Below, piece after piece: positions 11-53,131 of a DNA stretch of 64,000 nucleotides; the first letter of the stretch is position 1; each line of letters begins with the position of its first letter. The notes beneath the pieces are model-generated. The model was not told the origin of the DNA. It did no database searches and saw only the letters and a list, made by a program, of their open reading frames with translations. The stretch spans positions 1 to 64,000 of the forward strand of contig JAPUDO010000020.1 in the NCBI GenBank assembly GCA_027493055.1, in the 5' to 3' direction. Source of the DNA: Niabella sp. Lineage in GTDB: Bacteria > Bacteroidota > Bacteroidia > Chitinophagales > Chitinophagaceae. The translations under genes were made by a program, and so were the position numbers.

Positions 11-90
11 ACTAAAGGCCGAAGGCGTTATGCTTAATGCTTTTAGCTTCTGGCTTTCATGCCGTACAGCGTACAACTAATACCGTACAT
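11..90. repeat. Degenerate heptamer array
   Basis: From about position 11 to 90 the sequence keeps a 7-base phase. Units include TTATGCT at 28, TAATGCT at 35, TTTAGCT at 42, TCTGGCT at 49, CGTACAG at 63, CGTACAA at 70 and CGTACAT at 84. The word changes along the array but the period does not. It ends five bases before the stop codon of the membrane protein gene at 96. This is one member of the family of 7/8-base arrays described in the findings; its function is unknown. Confidence 0.75.
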
Positions 91-1361: not shown

Positions 1362-1672
1362 ACCTTATAAACCGGTCTGTTAATTTTACGAGTGTCATGT
1401 CAACCGAAAAACGTCGTTTTAATTGTCATGCTGAGCTTGACGAAGGGTATATAAGAAAAGACTTCGACAAGCCGTTAATGACAAGAATTTTAAATAAATG
1501 AAAATCAATGTCGTCCTGAGCCTGACGAAGGACATTCGTAATCCATCGCTCAAGGCTTCGTCAAGCTCAGCCTGACAACGCTTCTTGTCATTTCAATGAA
1601 CTTACTTTTTTTATTATTTGGGACTCAACATGACATTGGTTCCGAAAGAGTATGATTTACATGACACTAGTC
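1362..1672. repeat. Spacer with REP-like TGTCATGCTGAGCTTGACG repeats
   Basis: This 311-base spacer holds three copies of a motif close to TGTCATGCTGAGCTTGACG followed by AAGG: about 1425-1446 and 1509-1531 in plus orientation, and about 1555-1578 inverted (CTTCGTCAAGCTCAGCCTG). The second and third copies face each other and could fold into an imperfect hairpin. Similar motifs occur between genes in many bacterial genomes as REP-like repeats. No open reading frame or clear promoter was recognised here. Confidence 0.6.
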
Positions 1673-3030: not shown

Positions 3031-3061
3031 GATCACTTTCAACTGAATCGTTTACAAAAAT

Positions 3062-3087
3062 CTGTAAATTCTTTTGAAGATTTACAG
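3062..3087. promoter_or_regulatory. Palindrome upstream of hemerythrin gene
   Basis: Perfect 8-base inverted arms CTGTAAAT (3062-3069) and ATTTACAG (3080-3087) are separated by ten bases. They lie 32-57 bases before the hemerythrin ATG at 3030, where a repressor or activator site would be expected. The sequence does not match the TTAAGA/TCTTAA palindromes near the Rrf2 gene, so a different regulator would be involved. A structural RNA role is possible. Confidence 0.4.
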
Positions 3088-3097
3088 GTGTGAAACA

Positions 3098-3221
3098 GCG
3101 GGTGTAGAACAAATCTCCCTTTTTGCGTGCTTACCTATCGCCAGGAGGCGACAACATAGGCGTGTGAGGCGAGGACGCCTCACACAGCTTTCGGTAAACA
3201 GGTAAGTTTATCCCTCACCCG
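3098..3221. repeat. Structured element with AGGA-loop hairpins (copy A)
   Basis: The ric-hemerythrin spacer holds a nested inverted-repeat structure. Outer arms CTTACCT (3130-3136) and AGGTAAG (3200-3206) enclose two perfect hairpins. One has arms TCGCC/GGCGA (3138-3151) and the other arms GTGTGAGGCG/CGCCTCACAC (3162-3185); both have the loop AGGA. The left flank (GCGGGTGTAGAAC at 3098) matches the left end of the element at 22342. The right flank (CCCTCACCC) is an imperfect inverse of it. It may be a small mobile or REP-like element, or an RNA structure in the operon transcript. Confidence 0.55.
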
Positions 3222-3227
3222 AAACAG

Positions 3228-9698: not shown

Positions 9699-9989
9699 AA
9701 AAATCCAACGCTCATCCGTCCGCTTTCATATCGTACATTTTGCTGGTTACATGTTTCAAGTTGTGCAGAGCTGTAATCCCCCGTCTTCTGACCTCGGTCT
9801 TCCGGATTTTTCGAACTTTCCCTCGTACACCTTACATCGTACATAAAAGCATAGAAATTCTATACCACCTGATTGATGCACCTTTTTCTTCCTTCTTATT
9901 AACCTTTAAACCATTTTCAACCACTGTTAAACTATCTTCAACTACTTTTCAACCGCCCTTCTGTCATCCGTCAACTGTCATCTCTACCT
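9699..9989. repeat. Spacer with heptamer arrays between regulator and glutamate dehydrogenase
   Basis: About 290 bases without a gene. TCGTACA at 9823, CCTTACA at 9830 and TCGTACA at 9837 are in 7-base phase. CTGTCAT at 9961, CCGTCAA at 9968 and CTGTCAT at 9975 form a second array that ends next to the glutamate dehydrogenase stop at 9990. Between them (about 9900-9955) is a looser 10-11-base rhythm of ACC/ACT words. No terminator or ORF was recognised. Confidence 0.6.
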
Positions 9990-11408
9990 CTATGGGAATA
10001 TACCCAGCTCAGCATAGGAAGTAGCTACTTTATTAATGGCCACTACATAAGCGGCAGTACGCATATCAGGTATTTGTTCATTATTCTTCCATTCTTCCAT
10101 GATATCCCTGGTAGCCCCGATCATGGTTTCTTCCAGGCCGCTGTACACAAGGTCTACCTCATCAGCCCCATGCTTGATAAACGACCGGTTCTTTTCGTCT
10201 ACACGTTTACCTGTCAATTCTTCTATTTCCTCCAGTATGCGTGCGTTCATGTTTTCGTTGAATCGTTTCTCCATTCTGCCATAACGAACATGGCTCAGGT
10301 TTTTCAGCCACTCAAAATAAGATACAGTAACACCGCCTGCATTCAGGTACATATCCGGCACCACCAATACTCCTTTCTGAATGAATATTTCATCCGCTTC
10401 TGGCGTTAAAGGTCCGTTGGCTGCTTCACCTATAATTTTAGCTTTTATACGCGGGGCATTTTCCCCATCGATCACGTTTTCCAATGCTGCGGGGATGAGG
10501 ATATCACAATCCAGCTCCAATCCTGCTTTATTACTTTCCAGATTAATGGCGCCCGGGAAATTGAGGATAGAACCGGTTCGTTTTCTATGTTCCACCAGCT
10601 CATGTACATTAATACCATCGGGTTTTGAAATAGCACCTTCATATTCAGCAATACCAACAATAACAGCGCCGTTTTCCATAAAGTATTTGGCCGTATGGAA
10701 ACCTACATTTCCCAGTCCCTGAACTACAATACGTTTTCCTTCCACACCTGTAGTAAGCCCGCGTTTCAGCATTTCTTCCTCCAGAGAGCACACTTCCTTC
10801 AGGCCATAAAAAACACCTAAACCGGTAGCCTCTCTTCGGCCGCGAACACCACCCTGCGAAACAGGTTTTCCAGTTACACATCCTGCGGCATCAATATCCT
10901 GCGGATGCATAGCGGCATAGGTATCCAGTATCCAGGCCATTTCTCTTTCACCGGTACCATAGTCAGGTGCAGGCACATCAACGGCAGGTCCTATAAAGCT
11001 TTTTTTGATCAGCTCGGAGGTGTAGCGTCTTGTAATTTTTTCAAGCTCATAAGGCGTATATTTTTTGGGGTCTATCTTTATACCTCCTTTCCCGCCGCCA
11101 AAAGGCACATTAACAATAGCACACTTGTACGTCATTAAAGCGGCAAGTGCCATTACCTCGTCCATATTTACCGACATCGAAAAGCGGATACCGCCCTTAC
11201 ATGGTGTTTTGTGATGCGAATGCTGGGCACGATACGCTTCAATAACTTCAATGGAGCCATCTTCTTTTTTAATGGGAAAACGCATACGGTAAACAGAGTT
11301 GCAGGCACTGATCTGTTCCAGCAGCCCTCTATCCCATTTGGTAAACTCGGCTGCCCTGTTGAAGCTTTTTTTAACCGCTCCAAAAAAACTGTAATTATTA
11401 TCAGACAT
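9990..11408 (-). CDS. Glu/Leu/Phe/Val-family glutamate dehydrogenase
   Basis: A 472-residue protein of the Glu/Leu/Phe/Val dehydrogenase superfamily, interconverting glutamate and 2-oxoglutarate with ammonia. The N-terminal substrate domain shows the glycine-rich motif [11 protein letters not shown] with the catalytic lysine region, and [11 protein letters not shown]. The dinucleotide domain contains [17 protein letters not shown] at about 230-246. Length and motifs fit the catabolic-type enzymes of about 420-475 residues; NAD versus NADP preference cannot be judged. It is a stand-alone minus-strand gene flanked by heptamer-array sequence. Confidence 0.9.
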
Positions 11409-12444: not shown

Positions 12445-12732
12445 ACTAAAAACATCAGTTTAAGTTGATAAACACAAAAGTAAGCCGAAAGTTCATAGTT
12501 TATGGAAAAGCTTGTCTAAACTTATTACATTATCATCCTAAAGGCTAAAAGCTAAAAGCAAAAAGCTGAAGGCCAGCTTCTTCTTCGGACATCGGACCTC
12601 AGACTTCTTGACTTTCCCGACTTCCTGACCATTCCAACAAGACATATGAATAACTATGAGCTAAAGGCTAAAAGCAAAAGCCGAAGGCCAGCTTCTTCTT
12701 CGACTTCGGACCTCGGACTTTCCGACTTTTCC
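12445..12732. repeat. Two related heptamer arrays inside the ccm operon
   Basis: The spacer between ccmB and ccmC holds two similar blocks in 7-base phase. The first runs from about 12537 to 12620, with AAGGCTA at 12541, AAAGCTA at 12548, AAAGCAA at 12555 and AAAGCTG at 12562, then CTTCGGA at 12583 and CATCGGA at 12590. The second runs from about 12655 to 12730 and repeats the same word order, with CTAAAGG at 12661, CTAAAAG at 12668, CTTCGGA at 12704 and CCTCGGA at 12711. The blocks look like diverged copies of each other. Confidence 0.75.
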
Positions 12733-36684: not shown

Positions 36685-36793
36685 GTTCATGGTTCATAGC
36701 TCATAGTTCATAGTGTGTAAAAAAAAGATTCAACAACCAACATTTTAGCCTATCACATTTCAACATTTTAACTTGTCAACTTACCAACTTACT
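36685..36793. repeat. Heptamer then octamer array upstream of ribF
   Basis: GTTCATG at 36685, GTTCATA at 36692, GCTCATA at 36699 and GTTCATA at 36706 are exact 7-base steps. Further on the phase becomes 8: CACATTTC at 36754, AACATTTT at 36762, AACTTGTC at 36770, AACTTACC at 36778 and AACTTACT at 36786. The last unit provides the start of the TACTTTTG box for ribF. The 7-base word is the reverse complement of the one at 51983-52010. Confidence 0.8.
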
Positions 36794-39059: not shown

Positions 39060-39099
39060 TTAGCACATTTTCAAATTATCACATTATCACATTTTCCAA
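39060..39099. repeat. Octamer array abutting the lolD-like start codon
   Basis: Units in 8-base phase: TTAGCACA at 39060, TTTTCAAA at 39068, TTATCACA at 39076, TTATCACA at 39084 and TTTTCCAA at 39092. The last base of the last unit is the A of the next gene's ATG. No conventional ribosome-binding sequence remains between the array and the start. Confidence 0.75.
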
Positions 39100-39809
39100 T
39101 GCCCGGCATTATACATATTGATCAGTTACGCAAAAGCTACTTTATGGGTCAGCAGGAGCTGCCTGTACTCAAAGGTATTTCGTTAGATATCTATAAAAAC
39201 GAATACATTTCATTAATGGGTCCTTCAGGCAGCGGTAAAAGTACGCTCATGAATATATTAGGCTGCCTCGACAGTCCTACGGCAGGCACATATATCCTAA
39301 ATGATCATGATGTGAGCAAAATGGAAGACAATGCGCTGGCCGAAGTACGCAATAAAGAAATTGGTTTTGTGTTTCAGCAGTTCAATTTATTGCCCAGGCT
39401 CACCGCGTTAGAAAATGTGGCGCTGCCTTTAATTTATGCGGGCCTGTCTAAAAACATCCGTAATGAAAAGGCCATGCAGGTACTGGAAAAAGTGAATCTT
39501 ACTGATCGAAGCCATCATAAGCCTAATGAACTGAGCGGTGGCCAGTGCCAGCGCGTAGCAATTGCAAGGGCTTTGGTCAATGATCCTTCCATTATTTTAG
39601 CAGATGAGCCAACCGGTAACCTTGACACTAAAACTTCCTATGAGATCATGGATATTTTCGGGCAGATACATGCCAGTGGCAATACCGTTGTTTTGGTTAC
39701 CCATGAAGAGGATATTGCCCGCCACTCCCATCGTATTGTAAGGCTGAGAGACGGTTTGATTGAAACGGATGAAAAAGTGGAGAACCCTACAATTGCGCAT
39801 GTACGTTGA
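39099..39809 (+). CDS. ABC transporter ATP-binding protein, LolD/MacB type
   Basis: A 236-residue ABC ATPase. Walker A is [19 protein letters not shown] at about 39-57, the Q-loop region is [20 protein letters not shown], the signature is [16 protein letters not shown], and Walker B is [16 protein letters not shown]. This pattern, including PTGNLD, is typical of LolD/MacB/FtsE-like ATPases that drive lipoprotein release or efflux through MacB-type permeases. The permease is not adjacent, so the partner is unknown. Short-repeat arrays flank the gene on both sides. Confidence 0.88.
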
Positions 39810-39810
39810 A

Positions 39811-39896
39811 ATGACAGAGGACAGATGACCGAAGACAGTTGACAGTTGAAAAAAATCCAAAGTCTAACGTCTAAATACTAATATCCAGATACTAAA
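39811..39896. repeat. Heptamer arrays between the ABC ATPase and the adenosyltransferase
   Basis: Two consecutive arrays in 7-base phase fill the spacer. First ATGACAG at 39811, AGGACAG at 39818, ATGACCG at 39825, AAGACAG at 39832 and TTGACAG at 39839. Then AGTCTAA at 39861, CGTCTAA at 39868, ATACTAA at 39875 and ATACTAA at 39889. The second array ends one base before the ATG at 39897. Confidence 0.8.
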
Positions 39897-40457: not shown

Positions 40458-40880
40458 AGTTAGCGGGGGATGGATACCCAGAAAAATAGCCAAAAGGGGG
40501 TTATCCTGCACTCCTGTCATCTCAGGGCTAATGCATAAATTTTATTTCTTTAACTACCCGAACAATGTTGCGCAGCTATGCAGCGCTTCTAACAAGGGAA
40601 TTAACGTCTTCTATAAATGGTTACCGCTCCGCGGTAAGATAAAATTCCATTTCAGCCGCGTCACCGCGAATATATTAATAAGAAAGAAAAGCAAACAGCC
40701 CTCCGAGCCACATAGGTGCGGCGACATGTTTAATTTATGGGCCTGCCCTGCCTGTCAACTGTCATCCCTCAACTTGATTTGTTATATCTTAACGCAAACG
40801 ATTGCGCTTTTAACGCGCAGATAGTAAATTGTTTGTTATATTAGTGCCTCGAATTTCAACTACAAAAAAATTTAATTGCG
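40458..40880. repeat. Hairpin-rich spacer before acs with heptamer array and LacI-type palindrome
   Basis: A 423-base non-coding stretch. GC-rich palindromes stand out: TTACCGC-TCC-GCGGTAA (40621-40637) and the GCAGCTATGCAGC region near 40572, with further REP-like words (TCCGAGCCACATAGGTGCGG near 40700). CTGTCAA at 40752, CTGTCAT at 40759 and CCCTCAA at 40766 form a heptamer array. ACGCAAACGATTGCGC at 40792-40807 is a CG-centred palindrome like LacI/PurR operators. A TATATTAG box (40837-40844) may be the acs -7 element. Confidence 0.55.
40792..40807. promoter_or_regulatory. CG-centred LacI/PurR-like palindrome upstream of acs
   Basis: The 16 bases ACGCAAACGATTGCGC agree at 14 positions with the classical PurR-type operator ACGCAAACGTTTGCGT. 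It sits 30 bases upstream of a TATATTAG box (40837-40844) and 73 bases before the acs ATG, overlapping where a -33 element would lie. A LacI-family repressor or activator could bind; the one in this window serves a distant locus. Confidence 0.4.
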
Positions 40881-43512: not shown

Positions 43513-43670
43513 AACAAACTTATAGACCTGTAAGGTTTTGAAAACCTTGTTCTTCGGGACTTGCAGTCCCGAAGCTTTATATTGTAGCCTTTAGCTACTT
43601 TTAAAAATAGCCAAAGGCTGTACAATAGTCCTGCGAAACAAAATGTTTCGCAGAACATCTGTGTTAAAAC
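43513..43670. repeat. Hairpin-rich spacer in trp operon with dispersed repeat copy 1
   Basis: The trpC-trpF spacer consists largely of hairpins: TTCGGGACT-TGC-AGTCCCGAA (about 43552-43572), TGTAGCCTTTAGCTA pairing with TAGCCAAAGGCTGTACA, and CTGCGAAAC-AAAAT-GTTTCGCAG (about 43631-43653). The part 43608-43659 recurs with about 5 differences in 52 bases at 50026-50077. It would be transcribed within the trp mRNA. Confidence 0.7.
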
Positions 43671-46662: not shown

Positions 46663-47232
46663 TTATACAGCTAACCAGTTGCGAATGATCGTTTCCCCCA
46701 TTGGCGTCAGCACACTTTCAGGATGAAACTGTACCCCACGCACATCATAAGTTTTATGCCTCAACGCCATGATCATATCATTCTCATCAACAGCAGTTAC
46801 TTCCAGTTCATCAGGAAAGCCGTCTTTTGACACCACCCAGGAATGATAACGACCCACTTCAATATCGGTTGGCAAGCCTGCAAACAGCCTTGCATCCTCT
46901 TTAATTATTTTGCACGATGTTGCTACCCCATGATATACTTTTGACAGGTTGGTCAGTTTTCCACCAAATGCCTCACCTATAGCCTGTTGCCCCAAACACA
47001 CGCCCAATATGGATTTTGTAGCAGCATATTCTTTTATAAGAGGTAATAGCAAACCTGCTTCTACAGGAATGCCGGGACCGGGGGAAAGAATGATCTTATC
47101 GTAGTCCTTCACTTTTTCAAGCAGTATCTGGTCGTTGCGGTACACATCTACTTTCTGATGTAATATTTTTTCAACCAGGTGAACCAGGTTATAAGTAAAA
47201 GAATCGTAATTATCAAAAACGAGCAGCTTCAT
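46663..47232 (-). CDS. trpG: Anthranilate synthase glutaminase subunit
   Basis: A 189-residue glutamine amidotransferase. The ATG at 47232 (MKLLVFDNYDSFTYNLVHLV) is the family start; an in-frame start at 47340 would read repeat sequence. The catalytic cysteine is in ILGVCLGQQAIGEAFGG and the His/Glu pair in GVQFHPESVLTPMG. It supplies ammonia to TrpE and might also serve folate synthesis. Its start codon is part of the last unit of the heptamer array that fills the trpE-trpG spacer. Confidence 0.94.
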   Translation of the reverse strand: MKLLVFDNYDSFTYNLVHLVEKILHQKVDVYRNDQILLEKVKDYDKIILSPGPGIPVEAGLLLPLIKEYAATKSILGVCLGQQAIGEAFGGKLTNLSKVYHGVATSCKIIKEDARLFAGLPTDIEVGRYHSWVVSKDGFPDELEVTAVDENDMIMALRHKTYDVRGVQFHPESVLTPMGETIIRNWLAV

Positions 47233-47346
47233 GTAGAATGTAGAATATTGAATGTTAAATATTAAATGTAAAATACCTGTGAACGTTGTGAAACCGGCCT
47301 CGGGCTTTCTGCCTCCTGCTTTCAGCCTGCGATAAACCATGAACTA
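47231..47346. repeat. Heptamer arrays filling the trpE-trpG spacer
   Basis: On the plus strand ATGTAGA at 47231, ATGTAGA at 47238, ATATTGA at 47245, ATGTTAA at 47252, ATATTAA at 47259 and ATGTAAA at 47266 are in exact 7-base phase. GGCTTTC, TGCCTCC, TGCTTTC and related units follow at about 47304-47325, then CATGAAC and TATTAAC near 47338-47351. The array starts inside the trpG start codon and runs into the trpE stop, leaving almost no other sequence. Confidence 0.8.
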
Positions 47347-48783
47347 TTAACTAATTTGCTGCGCTACTTCAACGGCTTTTTTAAGAGCGCCGAGCTTATT
47401 GTTTACTTCCTGCAGCTCATTTTCGGGTATGCTGGCGGCTACCACACCCGCACCTGCCTGGTAATACAAAGTATTGCCCCGGCTCAGAAAAGTACGGATC
47501 ATAATAGCCTGGTTGCAACTTCCGTTGAAACCCATAAAGCCCACAGCGCCACCATAATAGCCTCTTGACGTAGGTTCCAGCTCATTGATCAGCTGCATTG
47601 CTTTAATTTTAGGTGCGCCGCTGAGCGTACCGGCAGGAAAAGTTTTGGCTAAAAGCTCAAAAGAACCGGACGCATCACCCAGCTGTCCCGAAACTTCACT
47701 CACCAGGTGAATTACATGCGAATAAAAATGTGTTTCGCGAAAATGATCCACTTTCACATTATCACAGCCCCGGCTTAAATCATTACGCGCCAGATCAACC
47801 AGCATCACATGCTCGGCATTTTCTTTGGGATCATTCTCTAACCGCACTGTTTCTGCTGCATCTAATTTATCATCACCAGTTCTTTTTACAGTTCCGGCAA
47901 TAGGATGCACAATAGCTTTTCCTTCATTAATAATTAACTGAGATTCGGGAGAAGAGCCCATGATTTTATAATCGCCATAATCAAAGAAAAACAGGTAGGG
48001 AGAGGGATTGATATTCCTGAGCGCCCGGTACACATTGAACTCATCGCCTGTAAAATACTGCTGAAACCTGCGACTTAGTACGATCTGGAACACGTCGCCC
48101 CTGAAACAATGCGTAATGCCCTGTTGTACCATCGTACGGTAATCATCATCCGTCATATTAGAGCTTTCATCATCTTTAATACTGAACGGGTAAACAGGCA
48201 CATCTTTCCCGCGTATCAGAGATTCAAGCAAATGCCTGTCGCTCTTAATACCTTCTATTTCATTTTCGCAAATAAACAATTCATCCTTAAAGTGATTAAT
48301 AGCAATCACATATTGATACAGGCGATAACGCATTAAAGGAATTGCATCCCTGTCTTTCCTAAACACAGTGCCGGGGATGGTCTCAAAAAAGCGGACAGCA
48401 TCATACGAAGTATAACCATAAAGGCCCTGGGCAAAGGAAGCGGCTTTGCTTTGTGAGGTTTCTACATCAAAACGCTGCATAAAGCGGTGCAACGCTGCTG
48501 CTATGCCCGTTTGTCCGGGAAGCAGTCCATCGTTACCCATGCTTACTTCTTCCGCTGTATGGCCGGGTAATTTGATCTCCATTTTTTCATCAGAAGAAAT
48601 TTCAATACCTGCAATAGCATTTACCCCTATAAGGGACCAGCTGTTTTCTGCAACATGGTTATCCGTACTTTCCAGTAAGATAGTATCACGAAACCTGTCG
48701 CGTAAGCGTAAATAGATCCCTACCGGCGTAAATATATCAGCCAGCATTGAGGTAACGGTTGTTTTAATTTTTACGTTTTGCAT
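47347..48783 (-). CDS. trpE: Anthranilate synthase chorismate-binding subunit
   Basis: A 478-residue TrpE that converts chorismate to anthranilate with TrpG. The start is the ATG at 48783; a TTG at 48795 is less likely. The tryptophan feedback motif is TILLESTDNHVAENSWSLIG near the N-terminus (LLES). Catalytic-domain motifs are KIMGSSPESQLIINEGKAIV, HPIAGTVKRTGDDKL, HVMLVDLARNDLSRGCD and FPAGTLSGAPKIKAMQLINE. It is the first structural gene after the trp leader and attenuator. Confidence 0.95.
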   Translation of the reverse strand: MQNVKIKTTVTSMLADIFTPVGIYLRLRDRFRDTILLESTDNHVAENSWSLIGVNAIAGIEISSDEKMEIKLPGHTAEEVSMGNDGLLPGQTGIAAALHRFMQRFDVETSQSKAASFAQGLYGYTSYDAVRFFETIPGTVFRKDRDAIPLMRYRLYQYVIAINHFKDELFICENEIEGIKSDRHLLESLIRGKDVPVYPFSIKDDESSNMTDDDYRTMVQQGITHCFRGDVFQIVLSRRFQQYFTGDEFNVYRALRNINPSPYLFFFDYGDYKIMGSSPESQLIINEGKAIVHPIAGTVKRTGDDKLDAAETVRLENDPKENAEHVMLVDLARNDLSRGCDNVKVDHFRETHFYSHVIHLVSEVSGQLGDASGSFELLAKTFPAGTLSGAPKIKAMQLINELEPTSRGYYGGAVGFMGFNGSCNQAIMIRTFLSRGNTLYYQAGAGVVAASIPENELQEVNNKLGALKKAVEVAQQIS

Positions 48784-48834
48784 GTGTGTTATCAAGCTAT
48801 ATTCAAAAGATTTTCTTTCAAAAAGTCAACAAAA

Positions 48835-49759: not shown

Positions 49760-50166
49760 ATCTTCTTCAGATTTTTCATTTTTTAAACTACAGGGATGTT
49801 TTTCTATAAGTGTATGTAAGCTCTGGAAAGGCGAATAATAAAAACGCCTCCTAAAGAAGAATATTGTACCGGAATTCTATAATAGGAAAATTTTAACAAT
49901 TGATCTGTCTGTCAAATATGTCTCTAATTTTTTCACAAAACACTGTATATCAAATAGAAAGAATATAAAAAGACACGATCTGCGCAAGGGTTAAATCCTA
50001 ATGGCCTTCGGCTACTTATTGAATGTAGCCAAAGGCTGCAACATAGTCCTGCGAAACAAAATGTTTCACAGAGCATCGATGTTTCGCAAAGCATCGTTTA
50101 ACAGCGTTTTTCGGGACCTATAGATAGCTATCATTCGCGGCCACCCAAGCAAATAAAGCAAAACGG
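49760..50166. repeat. Spacer with dispersed repeat copy 2
   Basis: About 400 bases without an ORF. The segment 50026-50077 (TAGCCAAAGGCTG, then TAGTCCTGCGAAACAAAA and GTTTC) repeats the trpC-trpF spacer element at 43608-43659. Beyond it ATGTTTCGCAAAGCATCG repeats part of the unit again. The left half (49760-49985) is AT-rich and should hold the promoter of the L,D-transpeptidase gene; nothing else was recognised there. Confidence 0.65.
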
Positions 50167-51750
50167 CTAATGCATAGCCTCGCTTAAATCAATGGCTTCC
50201 CGGGTTTTCCGTCTCCGTATAAACAAAATAAAAGGAATACAAACCAAGAACAGTATCCCGAGATATAAAAACACATCCATATAGGATAACACCGCAGCCT
50301 GTTTGGTGATTGAAAGATCAAGGGTTTTATATGCCGAACCCAGCGCAACATCGGGCGTCATCCCTTTGGCTACAAATCCCTGCTTTATTGCCATTACCCT
50401 TTGCTGCACATTGAGGTCGTTTACATCCAGTTTGGATATGAGGTCGTTCCTGTACAACATATTCCTGTTACTGATAAAAGTAGTGATAGCCGCTACACCA
50501 AATGACCCTCCCAGTTGCCGCATCATTCCGGTAAAAGCAGCCCCCTGCCCTATCTGCTGGCCTTTTAAAGTAGAGAGCGCCATGGTAGTGATGGGTATAA
50601 ACAGCAGGCTTAATCCCAGCCCCCTGACAATCAGCATCCAGAAAAAATTATCCGCACCTGTATTGGGTGTAATAATTTTATATCCCCATAAACTATACAC
50701 AAAAAATAACAATAATCCAACCGCTACCATATACGGCTGTGGTACCCCTTTAGAGATAAGCCGCCCTACTACAGGCATCATAAATGCTGTTGCAAGGGTA
50801 GCGGGTATCATTAACATGCCCGATTGAAAAGCTGTCCACCCTAGCAGGCTTTGCGTGTACAGCGGTATAATAAAGGTAGATCCATACAGTCCAAACCCAA
50901 GTATAAATGACATTACCGTTCCGATCCGGAGATTACCGTTCTTTAATACCCGCAGCTCTACAATAGGGTTTTTACAGGTAAGCTCCCGCCATATAAAAAA
51001 GAACAGGCCAAACACTGCCAATGCGGTAAAAACTACTATCATTGAGCTCTGGAACCAATCTTCCTCATGCCCGCGTTCCAAAATAAACTGCAGCGATCCT
51101 ACGGTAACAGCAAGCAGGAATATACCCAGCCAGTCAATTTCGCTTTTGGACTTTTTCTCCGCATACTTAGGGCTTTTTATAAATTGCAGCGTTAACAGCA
51201 CCGCAATAATACCTAAAGGAATATTAATATAAAAAATATAAGGCCAGCTGAAATTATCTACAATATAGCCTCCCAGGGGCGGACCTAATGTGGGACCAAC
51301 AATCACACCCAAACCATAAATAGCCTGTGCCATGCCACGTTTTTCGGCAGGATAAGACTCTGTAATGATCGTTTGGGAAGTAACCAGCAACGCCCCTCCG
51401 CCTACGCCCTGTAAGAACCTGAAAGCAACCAGCTCCCAGATACCGGTAGCATTCCCGCACAGGAAAGAACATACCGTGAAAAGCACAATAGAAAAAGCAA
51501 AATAATTCCGCCTTCCAAATTGCTGCGACAACCAGCTGGTCATTGGCACTATAATTACATTACCGATAGCGTACGCTGTAATAACCCAACCCACTTCTGA
51601 AAGCGTTGCACCCATATTCCCCTTCATATCATTCAACGCCACATTCACAATGGTGGTATCTACAATCTCCAGCAACGCGCACACGATCGCCGTCAGTGTT
51701 ACAATAAAGCGGCGAAAGCCATATTCAACCAACGAATTTTGATCTTCCAT
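50167..51750 (-). CDS. emrB: EmrB/QacA-type (DHA2) MFS efflux pump
   Basis: A 527-residue drug:H+ antiporter with fourteen spans. Landmarks are EIVDTTIVNVALNDMKGNMG in helix 1 (motif D1), LSQQFGRRNYFAFSI (motif A) and GLGVIVGPTLGPPLGGYIVD (motif C of antiporters). It forms a tripartite pump with the EmrA-like adaptor and TolC-like channel encoded upstream. It is the last gene of the TetR-controlled operon and is separated from emrA by 256 bases of heptamer arrays. Confidence 0.93.
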   Translation of the reverse strand: MEDQNSLVEYGFRRFIVTLTAIVCALLEIVDTTIVNVALNDMKGNMGATLSEVGWVITAYAIGNVIIVPMTSWLSQQFGRRNYFAFSIVLFTVCSFLCGNATGIWELVAFRFLQGVGGGALLVTSQTIITESYPAEKRGMAQAIYGLGVIVGPTLGPPLGGYIVDNFSWPYIFYINIPLGIIAVLLTLQFIKSPKYAEKKSKSEIDWLGIFLLAVTVGSLQFILERGHEEDWFQSSMIVVFTALAVFGLFFFIWRELTCKNPIVELRVLKNGNLRIGTVMSFILGFGLYGSTFIIPLYTQSLLGWTAFQSGMLMIPATLATAFMMPVVGRLISKGVPQPYMVAVGLLLFFVYSLWGYKIITPNTGADNFFWMLIVRGLGLSLLFIPITTMALSTLKGQQIGQGAAFTGMMRQLGGSFGVAAITTFISNRNMLYRNDLISKLDVNDLNVQQRVMAIKQGFVAKGMTPDVALGSAYKTLDLSITKQAAVLSYMDVFLYLGILFLVCIPFILFIRRRKTREAIDLSEAMH

Positions 51751-51780: not shown

Positions 51781-52010
51781 TGCTGAATACCAGATACTGG
51801 TTTCTGGTTACTGGATCACATTCACCTTTGAGCTTTTGTCTTCCGCTTTTCACTTTCGTCTCATATATCCTACATTAACCTGATGCTGGTCAGCGGGAAC
51901 TTGGAACCTGAAACCTGGAACTTTAAACTGTTCAACCTGTCATCCGTCCTCTTATGTGTTACTTGATCATAGACGATAGACTGAACTATGAACCATGTAC
52001 TATGAACTAA
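51781..52010. repeat. Long heptamer arrays filling the emrA-emrB spacer
   Basis: The spacer between two operon genes is largely in 7-base phase. Examples are ATACCAG at 51787, ATACTGG at 51794, TTTCTGG at 51801 and TTACTGG at 51808; then GGAACTT at 51896, GGAACCT at 51903, GAAACCT at 51910 and GGAACTT at 51917; then ATAGACG at 51969, ATAGACT at 51976, GAACTAT at 51983, GAACCAT at 51990 and GAACTAA at 52004. The last unit contains the emrA stop codon. Confidence 0.8.
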
Positions 52011-53131
52011 TTCAGATGCACATCCACTACTACATTCATGCCTGCCCTGAGCTTTTTGATGAGCGGATCATCAGGGTGCTCAAATTCAATTTTAACCGGC
52101 AGGCGCTGTACTACTTTTACAAAGTTGCCACTTGCATTGTCCGGGGGCAGCAATGCAAAACGGGCGCCTGTAGCAGGCGACAAAGAAGCCAGTTTTGCTT
52201 CAAATTCCTTACCGGGAAAGGCATCTGCTTTTATAACCACTTTTTGCCCTTCCACCATTTTATTTACCTGGGTTTCTTTAAAATTGGCCACCACCCATTT
52301 ATCATCATTCAATACCACGCTGAACAATTGTGCGCCGGCCTGTATGAATTGCCCGGCCTGTACCGGTACTTTTGATACCACTCCGCTTTCAGCAGCAGTG
52401 ATTACAGTATAACCTAAGTTTAATTTTGCATTCTCTACCTCAACCTCCCGCTGCCTGATGCCTGATCTTGCTATATCTGACTGCTCTTTACTTGCTGTTA
52501 CCTGCCCCTGAACCACGCCCGTTTGTGCTGCCGCCTGGTTGCGTTGTGCTATTAAGATCTGTAACTGCTTATCAGCAGATTGTTTGGCAGCTAAAGCCTG
52601 CTCATACTGCTGTTGTGTAATAGAATGATCTTTAATAAGATTTTCATATCTCTTTAAATCCTCCGAGGCTCTCCACACGTTCACCTTAGCTGCTTCAATT
52701 TGTGCGTTCACCGTTTCAACAGCTGCCGCAGCCGTGCCTATATTTTTATGAGTAGCTTCAGTATTTGCCCGGGCAGAAGCCAGGTTACTGCGGGCTGTGG
52801 ACAGGGCTGCTTCTGCCTGCTCAAGCGCCATAGCAAGATCTCTTTTATCAAGAACAATTAAGGTATCTCCTTTTTGCACCACCTGGTTATCTTTCACTCT
52901 CACTTCGCTGATATATCCTGAGATCTTTGAAATAACAGGGCTCAGGTTAGCTTCCACCTGTGCATCATCGGTTTCTTCATGCTTCTGACTATGAATATAT
53001 CTTGTTATTCCCAGGTACAAGCTCCCTACTATCATCACAGCAAGTATAATAAAGAATATCGGGCTTCTTTTTTTAGCAGGTACATTTTCTCCTGCAGGTT
53101 CTTTTGTTTCAGTAATTGTATTATTTGCCAT
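52007..53131 (-). CDS. emrA: EmrA/HlyD-type membrane fusion protein
   Basis: A 374-residue periplasmic adaptor. A membrane anchor lies at about 27-45 (FFIILAVMIVGSLYLGI). The lipoyl half-motif is SPVISKISGYISEVRVKDNQ with VVQKGDTLIVLDKRDLAMAL, followed by a long alpha-helical hairpin (about 85-215) and the second lipoyl half and beta-barrel (SGVVSKVPVQAGQFIQAGAQ). It connects the MFS pump with the TolC-like channel. It starts 17 bases after tolC ends. Confidence 0.92.
   Translation of the reverse strand: MANNTITETKEPAGENVPAKKRSPIFFIILAVMIVGSLYLGITRYIHSQKHEETDDAQVEANLSPVISKISGYISEVRVKDNQVVQKGDTLIVLDKRDLAMALEQAEAALSTARSNLASARANTEATHKNIGTAAAAVETVNAQIEAAKVNVWRASEDLKRYENLIKDHSITQQQYEQALAAKQSADKQLQILIAQRNQAAAQTGVVQGQVTASKEQSDIARSGIRQREVEVENAKLNLGYTVITAAESGVVSKVPVQAGQFIQAGAQLFSVVLNDDKWVVANFKETQVNKMVEGQKVVIKADAFPGKEFEAKLASLSPATGARFALLPPDNASGNFVKVVQRLPVKIEFEHPDDPLIKKLRAGMNVVVDVHLN

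Follow-up and report, generated by a model that had tools for sequence, protein, structure and literature searches.

Degenerate seven-base repeat arrays in the intergenic spacers of Niabella and related bacteria

The DNA between bacterial genes is usually interpreted as a mixture of regulation and noise. The spacers of the Niabella genome analysed here, and those of its relatives, often carry in addition a fast-changing layer of repeats composed of worn 7-base words. An earlier note, made from the sequence alone, had reported such arrays; that observation was confirmed, while the interpretation offered with it is partly supported. The arrays are more than independent local slippage tracts. As the best available explanation we consider them heptad fold-back arrays, produced by slipped copying in steps of 7 nt together with copying between spacers, and comparable to the degenerate heptanucleotide hairpins of cyanobacteria; we give this explanation about an even chance of being correct.

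The window, by which we mean the whole stretch of 64,000 nt that was analysed, comprises positions 1-64000 of a contig in a 5.75-Mb assembly of 131 contigs (family Chitinophagaceae, genus Niabella). Genes were called by our own codon-score and ORF method, without annotation, so that gene edges may be off, and the names emrA and emrB were assigned by Pfam class alone. In each of ten intervals, the best lag-7 and lag-8 segments were scored against 300 dinucleotide-preserving shuffles of that interval. These intervals, the genes flanking the focal spacer and the stretches within it are as follows.

11..90, heptad array in the spacer after the minus-strand ORF 96-1361 (lag-7 score 12.7, 0/300 shuffles)
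9823..9844, CGTACA-type array, one copy of a dispersed module, matched at 9824-9844 (lag 7, 1/300 shuffles for 9823-9843)
9961..9988, short GTCAACT/GTCATCC array ending beside the stop of the minus-strand ORF 9990-11408 (lag 7, 4/300 shuffles)
12537..12730, composite of CTAAAAG-type and TCGGACT-type heptads (lag-7 score 19.2, 0/300 shuffles)
36685..36793, GTTCATA heptads, then 8-base repeats ACATTTCA and CAACTTAC (lag 7 and lag 8 each 0/300 shuffles)
39060..39099, 8-base array ACATTATC ending where ORF 39099-39809 starts (lag-8 score 17.2, 0/300 shuffles)
39811..39896, GACAGAT then AACGTCT heptads filling the spacer of two plus-strand ORFs (lag-7 score 18.1, 0/300 shuffles)
40752..40779, short GTCAACT/GTCATCC array (lag 7, 2/300 shuffles)
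47231..47351, TGTAGAA/TATTAAA heptads between trpE-like and trpG-like genes (lag-7 score 23.1, 0/300 shuffles)
46663-47340 and 47347-48795, trpG-like ORF and trpE-like gene, respectively (PF00425, PF04715, PF00117)
50167..51750, minus strand, downstream gene, MFS transporter (emrB; PF07690, 1.8e-59)
51781..52010, focal spacer between the HlyD-type adaptor gene and the MFS efflux gene (lag-7 best score 15.0, 0/300 shuffles)
51787-51814, 51896-51929 and 51952-52004, heptad stretches of TACTGGT, GGAACCT and TGAACTA type, respectively, in the focal spacer, which holds at least three
52007..53131, minus strand, upstream gene, HlyD family adaptor (emrA; PF16576, PF13437)

The period-7 or period-8 arrays claimed for these ten intervals all exceeded their dinucleotide shuffles (≤4/300), one with both periods and one, 39060-39099, with period 8 only and no lag-7 signal against its 300 shuffles. 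Six intervals (11-90, 12537-12730, 36685-36793, 39811-39896, 47231-47351 and 51781-52010) were matched by none of the shuffles at lag 7; the three short ones (9823-9843, 9961-9988 and 40752-40779) are individually weak. The CTAAAAG/TCGGACT composite occurs twice in spacer 12537..12730, as judged by eye, and the segments within 39811..39896 lie at 39813-39849 and 39852-39881. In the trpG-like ORF 46663-47340 the domain starts only at residue 40. The heptads of the focal spacer start immediately past the stop codon of the HlyD-family gene, and for the MFS protein on its other side the closest named loci are from Niabella (84% identity). An Rfam search of the window returned no match. With respect to intrinsic terminators, the focal spacer holds a single match to a 5-pair GC stem with a T run, versus 0.3 (sd 0.7) in shuffles, and this lies on the plus strand, opposed to the direction of both flanking genes. 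By eye, the spacer at window positions 1428-1600 carries TCATGCTGAGCTTGACGAAGG-like repeats in both orientations.

The wider sample comprised 464 kb of this 5.75-Mb genome; a further 15 Niabella genomes contributed 100-200 kb each, and two other genera approximately 21 kb each. Over the spacers of the 464 kb, the lag-7 match was 0.2817, versus 0.2684 (sd 0.0016) after shuffling, and lags 14 and 21 were raised too; the lag-8 match was hardly raised (0.2700 versus 0.2684). Coding DNA showed no rise at lag 7 (0.2522) or lag 14 (0.2521); the signal is specific to spacers, as had been proposed. A segment detector applied to the 282 spacers of this sample yielded 65 segments at lag 7 versus 3.0 in shuffled spacers, 50 versus 3.0 at lag 14, 13 versus 4.0 at lag 8, and 3 versus 3.0 at lag 6. 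These counts and the later analyses omit spacers bearing N, while the lag-match averages use DNA in which an earlier segment listing counted one run of N as an array. Two outcomes named beforehand as fatal to the observation, an equal signal in shuffled spacers and a disappearance of the phase genome-wide, did not occur, so far as 464 kb of 5.75 Mb reaches. Among the 16 Niabella genomes sampled, each kb of spacer held between 0.07 and 2.0 segments, and single 21-kb loci of DXS and Taibaiella held 3.1 and 2.7, respectively. Split by spacer type, the density was highest in co-directional spacers (0.98 per kb), followed by convergent (0.75) and divergent ones (0.52). Deduplicated spacers of Weeksellaceae gave 52 segments versus 12.5 in shuffles at lag 7 and 37 versus 13.0 at lag 8. 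E. coli K-12 yielded no lag-7 segment in 50 kb, of which 4.3 kb is spacer, and no lag-7 array was found in three 20-kb stretches from the wider order, whose 181-4495 bp of spacer each are too little to judge; a fourth stretch, of 1.7 kb, was left out.

Within arrays of at least 42 nt, the matched fraction falls from 0.688 through 0.608, 0.561, 0.486 and 0.438 to 0.396 at lags 7 to 42, with off-phase values of 0.255-0.284; the first figure is inflated by the selection of arrays. The period is thus real, although the "strict" phase of the earlier note is too strong a description for a match that declines from 0.688 to 0.396. Its further claim that words drift inside arrays holds, similarity falling off unit by unit. 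A steady decay over unit distance is expected if each unit is a worn copy of its neighbour. One word may pass gradually into another, as in the passage from GATGACA through GTAGAAT to TTAAATG, with a similar passage at the far-apart sites L009 9851 and L022 19266, and a relative contains a pure run of approximately 17 units (L319 455-579). Slipped-strand copying of adjacent 7-nt stretches may create the units, and would account for the period, the decay and the pure runs.

The arrays are also related to one another. The 40 array spacers in 464 kb of the genome formed 69 BLAST-related pairs, versus 2 in a reversed control, and the sum over 12 genomes was 116 versus 7, to which G003, G004 and G009 contributed nothing. 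One pair has 166 nt in common at 92%, copies of composites share pieces whose ends vary in place, and near-identical modules are dispersed on both strands. A 29-mer was present in 29 contexts of the DNA sampled (≤6 edits), often with shared flanks. The CGTACA pattern at its core gave 81 matches in the genome (overlapping registers counted separately) and no reversed hits; across the family, 13 of 147 genomes had matches, and the reversed control gave one hit. The occurrence of TATGAAC in both orientations, noticed earlier in the window, extends across the genome: with at most one mismatch, TATGAACTATGAAC matched 27 times on one strand and 14 times on the other, versus 4 for the reversed pattern, counts in which overlapping registers are treated as separate. 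One array composite, compared with plasmid and phage record collections, had no match in either.

Relatedness extends to the vocabulary of the arrays. The 231 arrays from 18 genomes contained 628 word classes, compared with 870 (sd 19) for synthetic arrays seeded with heptamers drawn at random from spacers. Relative to this null of slippage from random seeds, word sharing was raised both within genomes (0.138 versus 0.080) and between them (0.097 versus 0.067); when the 57 arrays of the present genome outside the window were compared with the 165 of the other genomes, it was 0.097 versus 0.074 (z 4.2). The word TAACTGA was found in 11 of the 231 arrays versus 2.0 in the null, and no single dominant word emerged from the 628 classes. 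The cyanobacterial words TDNGATT and NNTGAGT were not enriched over column-permuted controls (30 arrays versus 25.8 and 18 versus 20.1, respectively).

Inverted partners within 150 nt in the same spacer, beating all 20 shuffles, were found for 56 of 174 arrays over all genomes, against 8.3 expected; the same criterion gave direct partners for 25 of 174. The inverted partners were strong in DXS (11/12) and G015 (10/11). The present genome had them at only 11 of 63 arrays, about as many as had direct partners (13). Among 20 loci read in G134, seven held inverted module pairs, the module starts being 44-206 nt apart, and 13 held the module in a single orientation. Opposed bases in the stems showed no clear RNA-sense excess, with G-T 47 and A-C 37 in array spacers and 114 and 86, respectively, in spacers without arrays. 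A 17-bp palindrome like GTATAGAAATTCTATAC recurs next to heptad arrays (window 9845; L201, L209, L216 and L218); it was considered as a terminal repeat and set aside, as it recurs at some arrays and marks no consistent end.

Arrays are placed with respect to gene ends. Of 176 arrays in co-directional spacers, 50 begin no more than 7 nt from a stop codon, versus 19.9 expected. At the other edge, 30 of 176 end within 7 nt of a start codon versus 19.9, yet 47 end within 25 nt versus 48.4, so there is no clear crowding at starts. A near-identical 27-mer, with 86 pattern matches to its core in G134, was present 27 times in the 20 loci read there; a sense-strand gene end lay near in 21 places and none was found for 6. 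Thirteen of the 27 copies have a stop codon at a distance of -1 to +7 nt on the sense strand; on the antisense side no copy does, gene ends there falling at -27, -11, 36 and further. The loci of G134, G093, G147 and G102 were chosen by the CGTACA word, and those of G134 therefore test place and not abundance. The stop-codon contact of this 27-mer looks selected or targeted. A reading of the 27-mer as a mini-ORF of eight codons was dropped because some copies have a stop as the second codon.

The arrays are, moreover, polarised. Of 50 arrays starting within 15 nt of a stop and more than 40 nt from a start, 43 had G>C on the sense strand, 3 had C>G and 4 had equal numbers; background 35-mers are near even (0.53-0.57 with G>C). 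Among 47 spacers with several arrays, the first was G-rich and the last C-rich in 28 and the reverse held in 1, the remainder having the same sign (14) or a zero (4). With arrays that have as many G as C, or that lie in the central fifth of a spacer, left aside, inward-G versus outward-G arrays numbered 99 to 28 in co-directional, 19 to 8 in convergent and 10 to 10 in divergent spacers of the Niabella set. The polarity recurs in the independent Weeksellaceae set, which gave 24 to 5, 9 to 2 and 6 to 1. On a confinement of the polarity to transcribed spacers, the divergent spacers of the two sets disagree. Lag-8 arrays in co-directional spacers gave 25 to 8 in the Niabella set and 16 to 8, which is not significant, in Weeksellaceae. 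The focal spacer is an exception to this rule (skews 2, 0 and 2). Polarity as a general property of intergenic hairpins was rejected, the 5' arm being G-rich versus C-rich in 138 to 117 hairpins without arrays and 40 to 15 with them. Of 62 stop-near arrays, 48% had stop codons in all three frames in the sense direction, versus 26% antisense and 12.5% in background. The stop density stood at z 7.0 against dinucleotide shuffles, though only z 1.6 against column-permuted arrays, which leaves all-frame stop codons weak as a cause of the polarity.

Orthologous spacers differ in length and words. The HlyD-MFS spacer measures 256 nt here, 224 in G003, 220 in BIN29, 147 in N. drilacis, 134 in N. pedocola, 131 in N. 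aurantiaca and 9 in BIN26. Between BIN29 and N. pedocola the flanking proteins are 99% identical around spacers of 220 versus 134 nt, and two relatives have orthologous spacers of 9-12 nt that are array-free; array-filled and array-free states of an orthologous site were compared by eye. TGAATAG-like words follow the stop at this spacer in many Niabella. In other genera the spacer was recovered at 67 of 73 loci, the longest being possibly misdelimited. Among close pairs, the matched fraction was 0.46 in array spacers (n=13) versus 0.62 in others (n=89; p 0.065), the relative length change differed at p 0.054, and length was unchanged in 0 of 13 versus 17 of 89 (p 0.12); faster turnover of array spacers is thus borderline. 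Gaps in the 13 orthologous array pairs measured 7 nt five times and 8 nt ten times, versus 6 nt once and 9 nt twice, with gaps of 1-5 nt commoner (50). In one case approximately 50 nt adjoining an array are identical while the array itself differs. The efflux-gene spacer of Chryseobacterium (L036-L103, before position 9991) appears by eye to hold several different hairpin families, as if repeatedly refilled; 17 orthologues picked by eye as one family have a predicted common stem, in which 2 of 25 pairs covary.

The likeness to heptamer repeats of cyanobacteria suggested in the earlier note is accepted. The P6b stem-loop of the cyanobacterial trnL intron consists of degenerate heptanucleotide repeats, Class I TDNGATT and Class II NNTGAGT (Costa 2002, as cited in PMC4476775 and PMC3488679). 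Its degenerate 7-nt units pair into a hairpin, as the inverted arms of 56 of 174 arrays would, its length changes by units, and the two classes swap at one site. There the repeats occupy one intron; here they occupy many Bacteroidota spacers (40 in 464 kb) in many word families, with stop-codon contact and polarity, and the two P6b words are not enriched. The statement that nothing comparable had been described for this group was too strong at the level of the phylum, since MacGregor (2015; PMC4679880) reports TAACTGA arrays in five Bacteroidetes, the spacers of two of which also hold other heptamer repeats. According to that paper, the TAACTGA repeats of Beggiatoaceae, cyanobacteria and these Bacteroidetes are, like ours, 7 nt long, mainly intergenic, sporadic and biased in orientation to genes, and 7 nt may suit polymerase slippage. 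In its main genome one word dominates, lying for the most part directly before start codons, and close variants of that word seldom form repeats; the present arrays differ in their many drifting words, inverted partners and stop-codon contact. Mrazek (2007), as described in PMC4679880, found a heptanucleotide excess among long simple sequence repeats and proposed slippage; the period-7 excess is shared, whereas those repeats are long and simple and that description mentions no dispersal, fold-back or polarity. BrickBuilt, a MITE with a minisatellite in Porphyromonas gingivalis, resembles the arrays in its Bacteroidota host, intergenic tandem repeats, small inverted ends and many copies, and differs in a 23-nt unit, a leader and tail, and 19 copies (PMC4596501). 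REP elements, associated with RAYT, are likewise dispersed hairpins between genes; they are described in PMC3733652 as tagged palindromes of 20-40 bp, while the arrays vary in length and word. In the open-access PMC literature, with subscription papers and preprints outside its scope, we recognised no description of such arrays for Chitinophagaceae.

Slippage, one of the origins offered in the earlier note, fits the decay of similarity with distance. As a full account it falls short: shared vocabulary, composites, inverted partners, stop contact and polarity mark the arrays as other than independent local tracts. In the fold-back explanation that we favour, pieces would also be copied between arrays, through template switching or gene conversion via shared words, and would fold back inside a spacer to yield inverted arms, the flanking genes bounding array growth; inter-spacer copying and fold-back synthesis would then give rise to the composites, the vocabulary and the inverted arms, and the arrays would be mostly tolerated rather than selected. 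Slippage with blind copying does not yield the polarity (99 inward-G versus 28 in co-directional spacers) or the stop-codon contact, both of which imply that direction matters for the formation or retention of arrays. Their source may be either a transposase reading inward ends, transcription selecting G-first hairpins, or inward DNA synthesis from gene edges. The most far-reaching form of the last is a new class of polarised heptad fold-back elements in gene-end spacers of at least two Bacteroidota orders, built inward from gene edges, both strands being G-rich inward, by an activity dedicated to extending 3' ends or to copying, which advances 7 nt at a time and favours certain words. We regard this as speculative and unlikely; if true, bacteria would have a new route to intergenic DNA, and the G-first hairpin would persist because it suits transcription through the spacer.

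Mobile, MITE-like fold-back elements, with heptads as inward-read terminal inverted repeats moved by a transposase that prefers gene ends, are a possibility to which we attach rather low probability. The inward polarity, the near-identical modules scattered on both strands, the inverted pairs in 7 of 20 G134 loci and the occurrence of orthologous spacers both filled with and free of arrays would all suit such elements, yet neither element length nor inner sequence is fixed, 13 of the 20 loci hold the module in a single orientation, and copies share pieces with ends at varied places. One composite, moreover, lacks a match in plasmid or phage records. A RAYT or Y1 transposase as mobiliser is disfavoured, since Y1 counts do not track array density (G008, 0 at 0.34/kb; G012, 8 at 0.17; G006, 11 at 1.36) and the one Y1 gene inspected, of six matches in the genome, is flanked by other repeats and not by heptads. 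Slightly more doubtful still is selection for RNA elements, that is, post-stop mRNA hairpins that would protect or set the expression of neighbouring genes through all-frame stops or the steering of Rho. Contact with stops (50 of 176 arrays versus 19.9), the sense-strand G bias near them (43 to 3), three-frame stops (48% sense versus 26% and 12.5%) at a density of z 7.0, and the predicted stem of 17 Chryseobacterium orthologues, even with 2 of 25 pairs covarying, are consistent with this; the opposed bases without clear sense bias (G-T 47 versus A-C 37; 114 versus 86 without arrays), the fall of the stop excess to z 1.6 against column-permuted arrays, the window's lack of an Rfam match and a 9-nt spacer between the same gene pair in one relative are not. 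That an oligomeric protein with a 7-bp repeat binds the arrays, as a chromosome or transcription insulator, appears improbable: the limited vocabulary and the near-identical 27-mer, with its 86 core matches in G134 and frequent position at gene ends in the loci read, could be so explained, whereas unit similarity decays with distance, as it should not in a fixed site, one genome holds many different words, and the module has a sporadic distribution, in 13 of the 147 genomes of the family. Telomerase-like addition of templated 7-nt repeats by a reverse transcriptase is hardly credible. Extension of 3' ends would fit the unvarying unit length and the inward polarity, but RVT_1 matches occur in just 7 of 17 genus genomes and in none of the five array-densest Niabella genomes (G000, G005, G006, G007 and G016); as a general cause it was rejected, unless the enzyme is too divergent for the RVT_1 model.

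In Niabella, detectable heptad segments reach about two per kb of spacer and occur also within trp-like and efflux-like gene pairs; a single process, working in 7-nt steps and with a direction, seems to lie behind them. If that process is found, it may explain the recurrence of period 7 in cyanobacteria, Beggiatoaceae and Bacteroidota, and the arrays could be used for rapid typing of strains. The recurrence of TAACTGA (11 arrays versus 2.0) offers a way to test the question of heptamer repeats with Niabella strains in culture.

Other repeats accompany the arrays. In DXS (L307:35-553), array modules are tandemly amplified into a satellite of approximately 120 bp in about four copies, and L308 is similar with a run of N. 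A dispersed family, TAGCCAAAGGCT ... TGCGAAACAAAATGTTTC ... GCAGAGCAT, occupies spacers without detected heptads (window 43513-43670 and 49760-50166; G000 C87:73950-74541). A palindromic dispersed repeat, CGCCAGGAGGCGACAACATAG ... GAGGCGAGGACGCCTC, is found at window 3043-3227 and at G000 C31:16122, C87:140204 and C74:9588, and a dispersed repeat of approximately 100 nt with CTGACAGGATTATAAAA at G000 C87:152842, C87:157928, C74:73804 and C74:97257. At L027:5300-6500, in the same genome, a Y1 (RAYT-like) transposase gene lies among repeats of its own, ATAATATT and CCCTTCGGG, which form a separate repeat family.
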